Translations under genes and position numbers: made by a program
Shown: piece by piece, positions 4,342 through 7,346 of the stretch
Layout of the letters: each line of letters begins with the position of its first letter
How positions within the stretch are numbered: position 1 is the stretch's first letter
Notes under the pieces: model-generated
Seen by the model: only the letters and a program-made list of their open reading frames with translations
What the model was told of the DNA's origin: nothing
The model's database searches: none
Source of the DNA: a virus
Strand: one strand, 5' to 3'
Length of the DNA: 23,046 bases
Virus record (IMG/VR): IMGVR_UViG_3300042565_001310
Coordinates: 1 to 23,046 of that record

Positions 4342-4380
4342 CAAAGCAACCGTCAGCTTTAAGACGAGAAAAGGAAAACT

Positions 4381-5265
4381 ATGCCTATTATTGAAGACGA
4401 ACAAGACCAACAAAACCTAGAAAAAGAAGAAAATCCTGTTTTAGAAGAAGATGTTTCTGAAGAAGAAACTCAGGAAAACGATAAAACAGATGAAACGGAT
4501 TCTGAAGAAGAAAGTCCTGTTATTTCCGATGAGGATGATAGCGAAATTGTATTGTCTCTTGGCGATGATGCAGAAGAAGAAGAGACAACGCCTTCAACGC
4601 AACTTTTGCGTGATTTAAGAAAAGCAAACCGCGAAAAAAACAGAAGAATTAAAGAGTTAGAATCTCAAATTAACCGTCCTGTACAAAAAACGGTTTTGGG
4701 TCCAAAGCCTACTTTAGAAAGTGCGGATTATGATGCGGAAGAATTTGAGAAGAAATTAGAAGAATGGTACACCAAAAAGTCTGCTGTTGATGCGGAAGAA
4801 GCAAAGCAACGTCAAGAAGAAGAAGATCAAAAGCGGCAATGGGAAAACAAATTGTCCGATTATGAAAAATCCAAAACATCCCTTCGTGTTCGGGATTATG
4901 AGGAAGCAGAAGCGACGGTTCAGGAACTTTTTAATGTTACTCAGCAAGGCATGATTCTTGAGGGCGCATTAAATCCGGCTGCTTTGGTTTATGTTTTGGG
5001 AAAAAATCCTGAAAAAGCAGCAAAATTTGCTAAAATTAACAATCCTGTGGCTTTTGCTTTTGAAATGGGAAGATTAGAAAAGGACATTAAAATGACTAAA
5101 AAAACAACACCTTCACAAACTATTCCTGCGCCTGAGCGTACTGTTCAGGGAACAGCTAAGACACGGTCTGATTCAGCGTTGGATCGTTTGAGAAAAGAGG
5201 CAGAAACGTCTGGGGACTATACAAAGGTCGTCCAGTATAAAAAACAACTGGCTAACAAAAAATAA
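4381..5265 (+). CDS. Scaffolding protein, P22 gp8-like
   Basis: The 294-residue product fits an internal scaffold that directs coat assembly and then leaves the prohead. It has no conserved catalytic motif. The first 75 residues are extremely acidic, with Glu/Asp runs throughout. A helical charged region follows (about 75-175), then a middle helical part and a basic C-terminus (RLRKEAETSGDYTKVVQYKKQL, spread over about residues 266-290). In P22 the coat-binding helix-turn-helix is likewise at the basic C-terminus, and P22 gp8 is 303 residues long. The gene lies between portal and coat, exactly the P22 position. AAAAGGAAA lies just upstream of the ATG as a ribosome-binding site. The call rests on size, charge pattern and position. 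Confidence 0.9.
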   Translation: MPIIEDEQDQQNLEKEENPVLEEDVSEEETQENDKTDETDSEEESPVISDEDDSEIVLSLGDDAEEEETTPSTQLLRDLRKANREKNRRIKELESQINRPVQKTVLGPKPTLESADYDAEEFEKKLEEWYTKKSAVDAEEAKQRQEEEDQKRQWENKLSDYEKSKTSLRVRDYEEAEATVQELFNVTQQGMILEGALNPAALVYVLGKNPEKAAKFAKINNPVAFAFEMGRLEKDIKMTKKTTPSQTIPAPERTVQGTAKTRSDSALDRLRKEAETSGDYTKVVQYKKQLANKK

Positions 5266-5280
5266 TTCTTGCAAAAGAAT
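5265..5280 (+). other. Short hairpin with GCAA tetraloop at the scaffold stop
   Basis: ATTCTT (5265-5270) and AAGAAT (5275-5280) are perfect inverted repeats closed by GCAA, a GNRA-type loop. The last base of the scaffold stop codon is the first base of the stem. The stem is AT-only apart from one G-C pair, and A residues follow rather than T residues, so it does not look like a terminator. It could mark an mRNA end or processing site, or be chance. Confidence 0.35.
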
Positions 5281-5295
5281 AAAAAAACATATAAT
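5269..5295 (+). promoter_or_regulatory. Candidate sigma70-type promoter before coat
   Basis: TTGCAA (5269-5274) resembles a -35 element and TATAAT (5290-5295) is a perfect -10 hexamer. The spacer is 15 bases, shorter than the usual 17. It is in the longest gap among the plus-strand genes, about 105 bases upstream of the coat start. A dedicated coat promoter would fit the need for hundreds of coat copies per virion. In an AT-rich region a perfect TATAAT can arise by chance. Confidence 0.4.
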
Positions 5296-5347
5296 TCAAA
5301 GAAAGTTCGCTGTCTTTAAAGCTGTGTAGAGTTCCCGCCCGCTTCAG

Positions 5348-5386
5348 TGGTGAGTAAAAAAATCGCTATCTTTTTTTTATTCACCA
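5348..5386 (+). promoter_or_regulatory. Long stem-loop in the coat leader next to the ribosome-binding site
   Basis: TGGTGAGTAAAAAAA (5348-5362) pairs with TTTTTTTATTCACCA (5372-5386): 15 base pairs, one of them a G-U wobble, around the nine-base loop TCGCTATCT. It ends two bases before the coat ribosome-binding site (CTGGAG, 5388-5393), leaving that site accessible. The T-run is inside the stem and no T-run follows, so it is not a standard terminator. A 5' stem-loop that stabilises coat mRNA or is recognised by a phage protein would fit, but this is inference. Confidence 0.6.
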
Positions 5387-5400
5387 ACTGGAGTTGATCT

Positions 5401-6675
5401 ATGGCTAACAATTTTTCTAAAGAAGAGCGGGTTGCGTTTGAGCAAATCCTTGAGGGGTTTGAAACTCAGTTTTTCTTGTTAAAAACAATTTCAAAATACA
5501 ATGTTGATTCTGTGATGATGGAGCGTGCTGGTAACACCATCTGGCGGCCTCAGCGTTACATCATGCGTTCATATGATGGTTTTGATCAATCCAATAACTT
5601 TCGTGATGTTACGCAGCTTTCTGTTCCTGTGACCATTAACACAGTTAAGGCGTCTCCATGGATTATGTCTGCGACTGATCTTAATGATGCTATTCAAGAA
5701 GGTCGTTTGGTTTCGGATGCTAAATATCGTTTGGCCTCAGATGTAAATCAGGCCATTTACAATGCGGCATGTTATAATGGTTCTGTTTTCATTAAGCGGA
5801 CGGCTGCGGCTTCTGGTTTTGATGATGTGGCGGCCATTGATGCGACATTGAATGAACGTGGTGTTCCTATGGAGGATCGCAGCCTTGCTTTAAGTAGCCG
5901 TGATTATAACGGTATGGCAAGCAACCTTGCGACATCGACACGTTCTTTTGGAAATGACATTAGTGATGCTGCTTTGCGTCGTGCTTTTGTTGGAAACATT
6001 GCTTCGTTTGATACGTATAAATTGGATTATCCTTTGATACTTCCTGCTGCGGCTGGTGGTGCTGGTATTACAATTAGTACGCTTACTGGTGGTAATAACG
6101 CATATGTTCCTCGGGCTCGGACTCAAGCGGCTTCTGGTGAATCTCAGAACGTTGATAACCGATACCAAGTGGTAACGGTAAGCTCTACAACCAACGTTCG
6201 CGCTGGTGATGCGTTTACGATTGCCAACGTCAATGCCATGAACCCCATTACCAAAACGGATACGGGACAATTAAAAACGTTTCGTGTAGTTGCTGTAAAC
6301 TCTGGAACCACAATGACCATTACGCCACCTATCATTAGTGCGCAAGGTGGTTCGGATTCAGAATTGCAATATCAAAACGTTGTGGTAACCACGGCTTCAG
6401 GAACGGCTGCTATTGTGTTTTTAAACACTGTGGCGGCTGCTATGAATCCATTTTGGTGCAAAGATGCTTTGGAGATTATTCCTGGGCGCTTTACTGTGCC
6501 AACCGGTTCTGGTGTTGATGTTATGCGCGGACGCATTGAAGGTGGTTTAGAGGTGGTGATGACAAAAGCCGTAGACATTAACACGCTTCAGCTTAAGGTG
6601 CGTGTGGATACGTATTATGGTGTTGCCAACAAGCAGCCTGAAATGTCCGGCATTATTATGTTTTCTCAATCTTAA
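5401..6675 (+). CDS. Major coat protein, P22 gp5-like
   Basis: This is the shell protein of the icosahedral head. The N-terminal region, with 'FFLLKTISKYNVDS', 'NTIWRPQRYIMRSYDGFD' and 'SVPVTIN' in the first 80 residues, is typical of the P22-type coat family. The 424 residues match P22 coat (430). A Thr/Val/Gly-rich stretch at about residues 225-330 (including AGDAFTIANVNA and ITKTDTGQLKTFRV) corresponds to the P22 telokin-like insertion domain, known to stabilise the P22 monomer and shell. The start follows CTGGAG with seven bases of spacing. The gene follows scaffold and has its own leader with a promoter candidate and a stem-loop, suggesting separate high expression. Confidence 0.95.
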   Translation: MANNFSKEERVAFEQILEGFETQFFLLKTISKYNVDSVMMERAGNTIWRPQRYIMRSYDGFDQSNNFRDVTQLSVPVTINTVKASPWIMSATDLNDAIQEGRLVSDAKYRLASDVNQAIYNAACYNGSVFIKRTAAASGFDDVAAIDATLNERGVPMEDRSLALSSRDYNGMASNLATSTRSFGNDISDAALRRAFVGNIASFDTYKLDYPLILPAAAGGAGITISTLTGGNNAYVPRARTQAASGESQNVDNRYQVVTVSSTTNVRAGDAFTIANVNAMNPITKTDTGQLKTFRVVAVNSGTTMTITPPIISAQGGSDSELQYQNVVVTTASGTAAIVFLNTVAAAMNPFWCKDALEIIPGRFTVPTGSGVDVMRGRIEGGLEVVMTKAVDINTLQLKVRVDTYYGVANKQPEMSGIIMFSQS

Positions 6676-6692: not shown

Positions 6693-7307
6693 ATGTCTTT
6701 GGTTATTACAGATATTGGGATTACAAAGGTTTCTGTTCCTGCTGGTGGGTCTGTGGCTGTTTACACACAGGGTCGTGCGTCTGTGGGTCGGATTCTTACG
6801 GAATTGCCAAGTGGTTACAATGAACTAACGCCTCTGGGTGTTGTTATTAGTGGACAATCGGTGTTTGGTCCCTATACAAATGGAACCACCATTGTTATTG
6901 AGAACAAAACGCTTCAGCCTGTGTATTATGAGGTTGGAACAGCCCCAACAGTACAGCAAGGGCGTTTGGTTACATTTCAACAGGTTGCTCCTGGTACATT
7001 GAACGCCACGGGTACATTGACGGGTGAATTGTGTTTGACGGGTATTGTCACGTCTACAACGGCGGCGTCGGTAACGGCTACACTTGACACGGGTGCGGCT
7101 TTGGATGTTAAAAGCACTTGGAACGTCAATGATGCCTTTATGTGGTCGGTCATTAACACAGGTGCAACAAACGCCTTTACGGTTGCGGCTGCGGCCAGTG
7201 GTCACACGCTTGTGGGCGGTGGTGCGGTTTCGGCAAGTAGCTCTGGTTTGTTTATGACACGTAAAACGGCTTCTGCCACGTTTGTGACATATCGGATCGG
7301 AAGTTAA
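6693..7307 (+). CDS. Probable head decoration or minor capsid protein
   Basis: The 204-residue product has no catalytic motif and is almost entirely Thr, Val, Gly, Ala and Ser, predicted to be all beta strand. The start MSLVITDIGITKVSVPAGGSVAV and the middle section TTIVIENKTLQPVYYEVG are typical of small beta-sandwich phage structural proteins. It begins 17 bases after coat, behind AAAGGAACTGG, and is followed by a terminator-like hairpin, so it is probably made together with coat. A protein co-expressed with coat and of this composition is most simply a decoration or stabilising protein. I cannot assign it to a named family. Confidence 0.65.
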   Translation: MSLVITDIGITKVSVPAGGSVAVYTQGRASVGRILTELPSGYNELTPLGVVISGQSVFGPYTNGTTIVIENKTLQPVYYEVGTAPTVQQGRLVTFQQVAPGTLNATGTLTGELCLTGIVTSTTAASVTATLDTGAALDVKSTWNVNDAFMWSVINTGATNAFTVAAAASGHTLVGGGAVSASSSGLFMTRKTASATFVTYRIGS

Positions 7308-7317
7308 TCATAAAATG

Positions 7318-7346
7318 GGCGGGTTGCTTTTGTGGCCCGCCTTTTA
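7318..7346 (+). terminator. Rho-independent terminator candidate after the coat operon
   Basis: GGCGGG (7318-7323) pairs with CCCGCC (7336-7341), with two further G-U pairs possible inside the loop, and is followed by TTTTAT. It lies 10 bases after the stop of the decoration-like gene. The GC-rich stem stands out in this AT-rich sequence. It would limit transcription from the coat promoter to coat and its neighbour, with some read-through into the tail genes. The T-tract is only four bases, so termination is probably partial. Confidence 0.7.

Follow-up and report, generated by a model that had tools for sequence, protein, structure and literature searches.

Pseudoknots in the scaffold and coat leaders of P22-like phages as probable switches of capsid-protein translation

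In P22-like phages, pseudoknots that lie ahead of the scaffold and coat genes probably act as on/off switches for capsid-protein translation. Comparison across related loci shows that a single H-type shape, the pairs of which covary, is common to the scaffold leader and, in one to three copies, to long coat leaders. We consider it reasonably probable that this is a translational control element of the capsid genes, which in the coat leader would act as an ON/OFF switch and whose likeliest ligand would be unassembled scaffold protein. All of the support is comparative and computational.

The window and its coat leader

The sequence analysed, hereafter the window, is an IMG/VR virus contig of 23,046 bases with a P22-like head module comprising terminase, portal, scaffold and coat genes. 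A search of a phage collection for near DNA similarity to the window returned no match. Its relevant features, including the Shine-Dalgarno (SD) sequences and the coat-leader pseudoknots PK1 and PK2, are as follows.

4343-4366, plus strand: scaffold-leader H-type pseudoknot (best descriptor match in the 23 kb, score 21.8)
4371-4375, plus strand: scaffold SD, AAGGA (from sequence; start codon at 4381)
4381-5265, plus strand: scaffold protein gene (phrog_648, E 6.6e-53)
5269-5295, plus strand: promoter candidate, TTGCAA (5269-5274), 15-nt spacer, TATAAT (5290-5295), scoring above all 30 shuffles of the region
5302-5322, plus strand: PK1-like element, degenerate (homology in alignment A3)
5329-5352, plus strand: PK2 (descriptor score 16.6; homology)
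5341-5394, plus strand: SD-masking stem, 22 pairs with one bulge (folding; duplex z -6.8)
5390-5393, plus strand: coat SD, GGAG, within the stem (folding; whole GGAG paired)
5401-6675, plus strand: P22-like coat protein gene (PF11651, E 5.5e-84)
6693-7307, plus strand: unassigned ORF neighbouring coat (below-cut-off Pfam match only)
7317-7342, plus strand: terminator-like hairpin, 11 pairs followed by TTTATC (-19.5 kcal/mol for the folded 35-nt stretch)

The scaffold and coat genes are separated by 135 nt (5266-5400), and this stretch is probably the 5' UTR of a separate coat mRNA. A first-pass annotation of the sequence had pointed to TATAAT with a -35-like element, and that site was confirmed as TTGCAA-15-TATAAT; a transcript start would fall near 5302, downstream of TATAAT. 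The same annotation regarded coat and its neighbour as an isolated unit closed by a terminator near 7318. A terminator-like hairpin does begin at 7317 and, together with the promoter candidate, fits a separate transcript, but promoter scores among relatives are mostly unremarkable: in 13 of 46 loci, including the window, the score beats every one of 30 shuffles (about 1.5 loci expected; mean 6.7 versus 4.0 in shuffles), and in the other 33 it does not stand out. A simple promoter and terminator scan of the window called neither TATAAT nor the 7317 hairpin. The place of this hairpin is similar to that of the stem-loop or terminator annotated directly 3' of the coat gene in the records of P22, Sf6 and HK620, only one gene later. 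The intervening ORF (6693-7307) resembles a single Pfam family, Caf1, under its cut-off, and matched no PHROG at E 0.01.

Folding of the coat leader is strong, with z -3.7 for 5250-5420 and z -4.0 for 5300-5400, and none of 200 shuffles folded as well. The long stem described in the first-pass annotation is therefore upheld as a strong structure, but it has 22 pairs and not 15 (5341-5362 with 5372-5385 and 5387-5394), and instead of ending two bases before the coat ribosome-binding site it encloses the whole of GGAG. An inverted-repeat search of the window returned no pairs, so that this stem was missed. Nor does 5341-5394 have the G+C-rich stem and U run of an intrinsic terminator; its U run lies within the stem, with the SD after it, and the terminator scan was silent there. 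A GCAA-capped hairpin that had been claimed at the scaffold stop (5265-5280) was rejected as a functional element. Apart from one C-G pair its pairs are all A-U, the -35 element falls within it, and the predicted transcript start is downstream of it. One of its pairs is also lost in a locus (L003) whose coat is 99% identical to that of the window.

A covarying pseudoknot shape at two capsid genes

Relatives were collected by coat searches, with the best 80 loci kept per search and many contigs recurring among searches. This gave at least 378 coat loci, reduced to 237 with distinct upstream sequence, in which the scaffold-coat gap is shorter than 60 nt in 153, longer in 71 and undetermined in 13. 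Hand curation removed five of the 79 long or undetermined leaders (misassigned, or with a small ORF before coat), and the remaining 74 yielded 47 representatives. Alignment A3 contains 46 of these (L171 excluded) and was built with MAFFT without structure. For scaffold leaders, 57 of the 237 loci had no usable start, which left 180, and 101 of these served as representatives; alignment A2 comprises the 82 that start with ATG. The pseudoknot shape reads S1, 3-4 nt usually ending in C, S2, 0-1 nt, S1', 2-9 nt, S2' and AG. The descriptor was shaped on these same sequences, and it is therefore the unselected alignments and the shuffles that carry weight.

In the scaffold leader of the window, S1 pairs 4343-4347 with 4356-4360, L1 is AAC (4348-4350), S2 pairs 4351-4354 with 4363-4366, and AG follows at 4367-4368; other descriptor matches in the 23 kb reach 20.0-20.6. 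The pseudoknot is present in 66 of the 82 ATG-start leaders, which were not selected for the motif, as compared with a mean of 6.25 and a maximum of 11 in shuffles. With all start codons counted, it occurs in 68 of 101 (6.5 shuffled). Covariation in A2 is 0.439 versus 0.181+-0.013 in shuffles and at most 0.129 in slid controls, with 87.5% pairing in S2 and 69.5% in S1; the number of A2 pairs changed on both sides, 10, was not above shuffles (85/500). Few bases are conserved outside the stems of this alignment, namely C at L1 position 3 (75 of 82) and the A and G of the following AG (72 each). The scaffold SD is mostly free, with a median unpaired probability of 0.54 (n=82).

A descriptor scan of the 237 loci (1.2 Mb) returned 264 sense matches and 61 antisense. 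Coat leaders account for 91 of the sense matches, and 129 fall between -1200 and -801 relative to the coat start, the region that holds the beginning of the scaffold gene; the other 44 lie outside both. Given enough upstream sequence, a match scoring at least 20 occurs at the scaffold gene in 76 of 117 loci with short coat leaders and in 44 of 56 with a coat pseudoknot; none at score 20 was found in the other 41 and 12, respectively. Among the matches listed (80 loci of at least 120 stretches), the scaffold-type pattern lies 5' of a scaffold gene in 76 of 80, and the other four contigs end within 150 nt. These placements bear on a possible role at the DNA level or in transcription, such as a packaging signal or antitermination. 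Promoter-like sites and a terminator-like hairpin are indeed nearby, but in 56 of the 61 leaders for which this was counted the sense-strand pseudoknot ends 10-22 nt 5' of the scaffold start codon, and in coat leaders the SD is involved, so that such a role is extremely improbable.

Long coat leaders are highly divergent in sequence but follow one common plan, PK1-PK2-SD stem, frequently with a promoter-like site 5' of PK1. At least one pseudoknot of the fixed shape is found in 46 of 47 (mean 1.38 per leader versus 0.12 shuffled): three copies in one leader, two in 17, one in 28 and none in one. In A3, 81.7% of PK1 cells are paired, with covariation of 0.218 versus 0.119 shuffled (0/500 as high). 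For PK2 the figures are 89.4% and 0.466 versus 0.215 (0/500), with slid controls at 0.122 or less. The first-pass annotation had named a lack of conserved pairing in relatives as an outcome that would speak against it; instead, pairing is both kept and covarying.

Pattern searches place these elements at the same genes. By tblastn count, the PK1 pattern lies 5' of a coat gene in 105 of 114 matches. Of 54 matches to the PK2 pattern, 34 precede coat and two lie within a scaffold leader (L501 and L515); the remaining 18 appear chance-like by eye. A context count based on the next ORF (coat after 66 of 114 PK1 and 33 of 54 PK2 matches) was discarded, as it chose spurious leader ORFs. On the coat tree, built with FastTree only, 19 changes of the coat-leader label are required, and well-supported branches force at least 14 of them, as if the element were exchanged as a module.

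Several leaders depart from the common plan. One (L038) has three pseudoknot copies with near-alike cores, as if recently duplicated. PK1 and PK2 are near-alike in sequence in two others (L361 and L368), a likeness which suggests that the two may be copies of one motif. A short ORF apparently lies between scaffold and coat in L171, L209 and L355, and in L171 the pseudoknot and SD region are 5' of this ORF and not directly 5' of coat. The coat leaders of L084, L085 and L110 (241-357 nt) carry additional sequence 5' of PK1. In L110, we take the stretch GTTCGAATC to resemble a tRNA T-arm.

The window's own PK1 and PK2 are weak, degenerate copies, and their assignment rests on homology. The PK1-like pairs are AAAG 5302-5305 with CUUU 5314-5317 and GCU 5309-5311 with AGC 5320-5322, with UUC 5306-5308 as L1; a descriptor scan of the window did not detect PK1. 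In PK2, S1 pairs GAGU 5329-5332 with GCUU 5341-5344, L1 is UCC 5333-5335, S2 pairs CGCC 5336-5339 with GGUG 5349-5352, and AG follows at 5353-5354. Its score of 16.6 is unexceptional alone, as 13-18 matches of 16 or more occur per strand in five shuffles.

Named phages also carry the element. The strict descriptor finds a scaffold-leader pseudoknot in CUS-3, PfAn1 and ct3Oc712 and a coat-leader pseudoknot in VSN-002; the CUS-3 leader is matched at 99% or more by ten further records, Sf101 twice. A relaxed descriptor adds Sf6, HK620 and ct76p945 (0/100 shuffles as good); with it, Skarpretter, Kc259, sortkaff and C130_2 show a variant in which CG comes next (0-5/100). On this scale, CUS-3 and PfAn1 score 3/100 and 1/100, and the best candidates in Vibrio 1.275, Aeromonas 4_4512 and AH02 7-11/100. 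Two candidates with 0/100 were set aside: that of APSE-1 uses the SD itself as a strand in a different arrangement, and that in the VSN-002 scaffold leader has no AG, lies 39 nt from the start and was not counted. The scaffold gene of P22 (gene 8) is autoregulated post-transcriptionally by free scaffold protein. It is homologous to the genes studied here, yet P22 shows no clear copy of the pseudoknot (15/100 shuffles as good). A search of the open-access literature turned up no paper on P22 scaffold autoregulation.

Competition between PK2 and the SD-masking stem

By sequence and folding, the 3' strands of PK2 can alternatively pair with the coat SD region, and in the window the SD-masking stem takes up both of them. 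PK2 and the stem are mutually exclusive because the same strands are used. Both pairings are possible in 32 of 46 leaders. The re-pairing test covered 41 of the 47 leaders, the other six lacking a pseudoknot close to the start; against shuffles of the downstream strand, the median z of the duplex is -3.3. At least three bases of S2' pair downstream in 40 of the 41 and at least three of S1' in just 23; the S1' region pairs with three or more SD bases in 29 leaders and with fewer in 12. These tests on single sequences give stronger results than the covariation of the same helices.

In A3, 86.9% of cells of the S2' stem are paired (84.1 shuffled, 53.9 or less slid), and its covariation is modest, 0.221 versus 0.187, with 5/500 shuffles as high. 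The S1'-SD helix is not above column shuffles in A3 (72.1% both) but is above slid controls (56.8% or less). These strands vary little, and both covariation tests are therefore of low power. The median unpaired probability of the coat SD is 0.20 in long leaders (n=47) versus 0.52 in short leaders (n=66; p 4e-11).

Two exclusive structures, one of which controls access to the SD, are thus indicated by sequence and folding, an arrangement that resembles the expression platform of a riboswitch. A riboswitch for a metabolite or ion, built from tandem aptamers and a translational platform, is nevertheless quite improbable, given the few conserved core positions, the linkage to capsid genes and the lack of any Rfam family at cut-off in the window and the related loci searched. 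A parallel in form is the E. coli rpsO (S15) leader, in which a pseudoknot opposes an alternative fold in translational autoregulation; it differs in being the leader of a cellular gene and in that S15 traps the ribosome.

The earlier reading, a static stem-loop plus a promoter, can also be weighed here. Both the stem and the promoter candidate are present in the window, but the covariation of the pseudoknot and its recurrence at the scaffold gene make this reading very improbable. A stem that simply stabilises the mRNA, as had been suggested, is likewise at odds with a masked SD, with a pseudoknot that competes and covaries, and with the second occurrence of that pseudoknot ahead of scaffold. 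The first-pass annotation caught only the outer part of the element and missed the pseudoknots.

Known RNAs and a proposed mechanism

No Rfam 15 family reached its gathering cut-off in the whole window. A relaxed search of window positions 5000-5700 and 19 related loci gave matches that are all far below cut-off, including mir-3747 at the window SD stem (18.3 bits versus 63) and sR28 overlapping the coat leader of L161 on the minus strand (16.8 versus 39); the others lie outside these leader sites. In the open-access literature, no title or shown abstract described this leader pseudoknot element.

According to PMC3014915, the leader pseudoknot of T4 gene 32 is bound by that gene's own product, which inhibits its own translation. 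As in T4 and T2 gene 32 (PMC3014915), an H-type pseudoknot lies in the leader of a phage gene, here scaffold and coat on comparative evidence, and the element appears to resemble that of gene 32 in function and to be a different RNA. As far as that source goes, the gene 32 pseudoknot lies 67 nt 5' of the start, an A+U-rich tract covers the ribosome-binding site, and gene 32 is another gene with one copy and no competing SD stem (PMC3014915). STAXI RNA (RF01728), as PMC2864571 describes it, is a tandemly repeated pseudoknot near genes for DNA-handling proteins, and coat leaders share the tandem arrangement. No RF01728 match was found at the loci tested, and the neighbours here are capsid genes. 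By the tests made, the element is neither a gene 32-type nor a STAXI member.

We propose that PK2 folds first on the emerging RNA and leaves the coat SD free (ON), and that refolding into the long stem would turn coat translation OFF. On its own, this sequence of events could constitute a ligand-free kinetic timer, in which PK2 forms, coat is made in a burst and the stem closes; the pseudoknots might also merely protect the 5' end from decay. The order of transcription (PK1, PK2, stem) and the promoter-like sites close 5' of PK1 in some loci fit a timer, but a timer would not account for the pseudoknot ahead of scaffold, whose SD is largely free, and we regard this alternative as distinctly unlikely.

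In the switch that we favour, a factor holding PK2 would keep coat ON, and the same factor on the scaffold pseudoknot, close to the SD, would block ribosomes and repress scaffold. Scaffold would be repressed because its pseudoknot lies against the SD, and coat opened because its pseudoknot displaces the SD-masking stem. Weighing against this switch are the weak PK1 and PK2 of the window, the loci without a scaffold pseudoknot at score 20, the want of a clear copy in P22, and the S1' and SD pairing figures given above. That the leader binds a phage protein, as the first-pass annotation had proposed, is plausible, since in T4 gene 32 a pseudoknot of the leader is acted on by a protein of the phage (PMC3014915). 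The same switch may respond to some other ligand, be it coat, another protein of the phage, or a ribosomal or RNA-binding protein of the host. Protein binding in general would be expected to leave few conserved bases outside the stems, as is seen, but the tie to scaffold and coat genes favours a capsid protein, and coat would be self-activating under the proposed logic; such a ligand is, in our estimation, unlikely.

Free scaffold protein is put forward as the factor because it would fit both the ON/OFF logic and the autoregulation of P22 scaffold. Surplus unassembled scaffold would then stop its own synthesis and call for coat. The full proposal, that unassembled scaffold recognises one pseudoknot shape on two mRNAs to opposite effect, blocking scaffold and opening coat so as to balance both capsid proteins, is a tentative one, which we hold to be possible though doubtful.

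The control of the scaffold-to-coat ratio in phages has long been a question, and we know of no RNA target for scaffold autoregulation in P22. A covarying candidate RNA target is now defined in HK620, Sf6, CUS-3 and well over a hundred distinct environmental loci, and the opposite effects predicted at the two genes are directly testable. The element adds an RNA without an Rfam match and a probable compact switch that combines a pseudoknot and an anti-SD stem. If the proposal is true, a virus balances its two main capsid proteins by means of one RNA shape.
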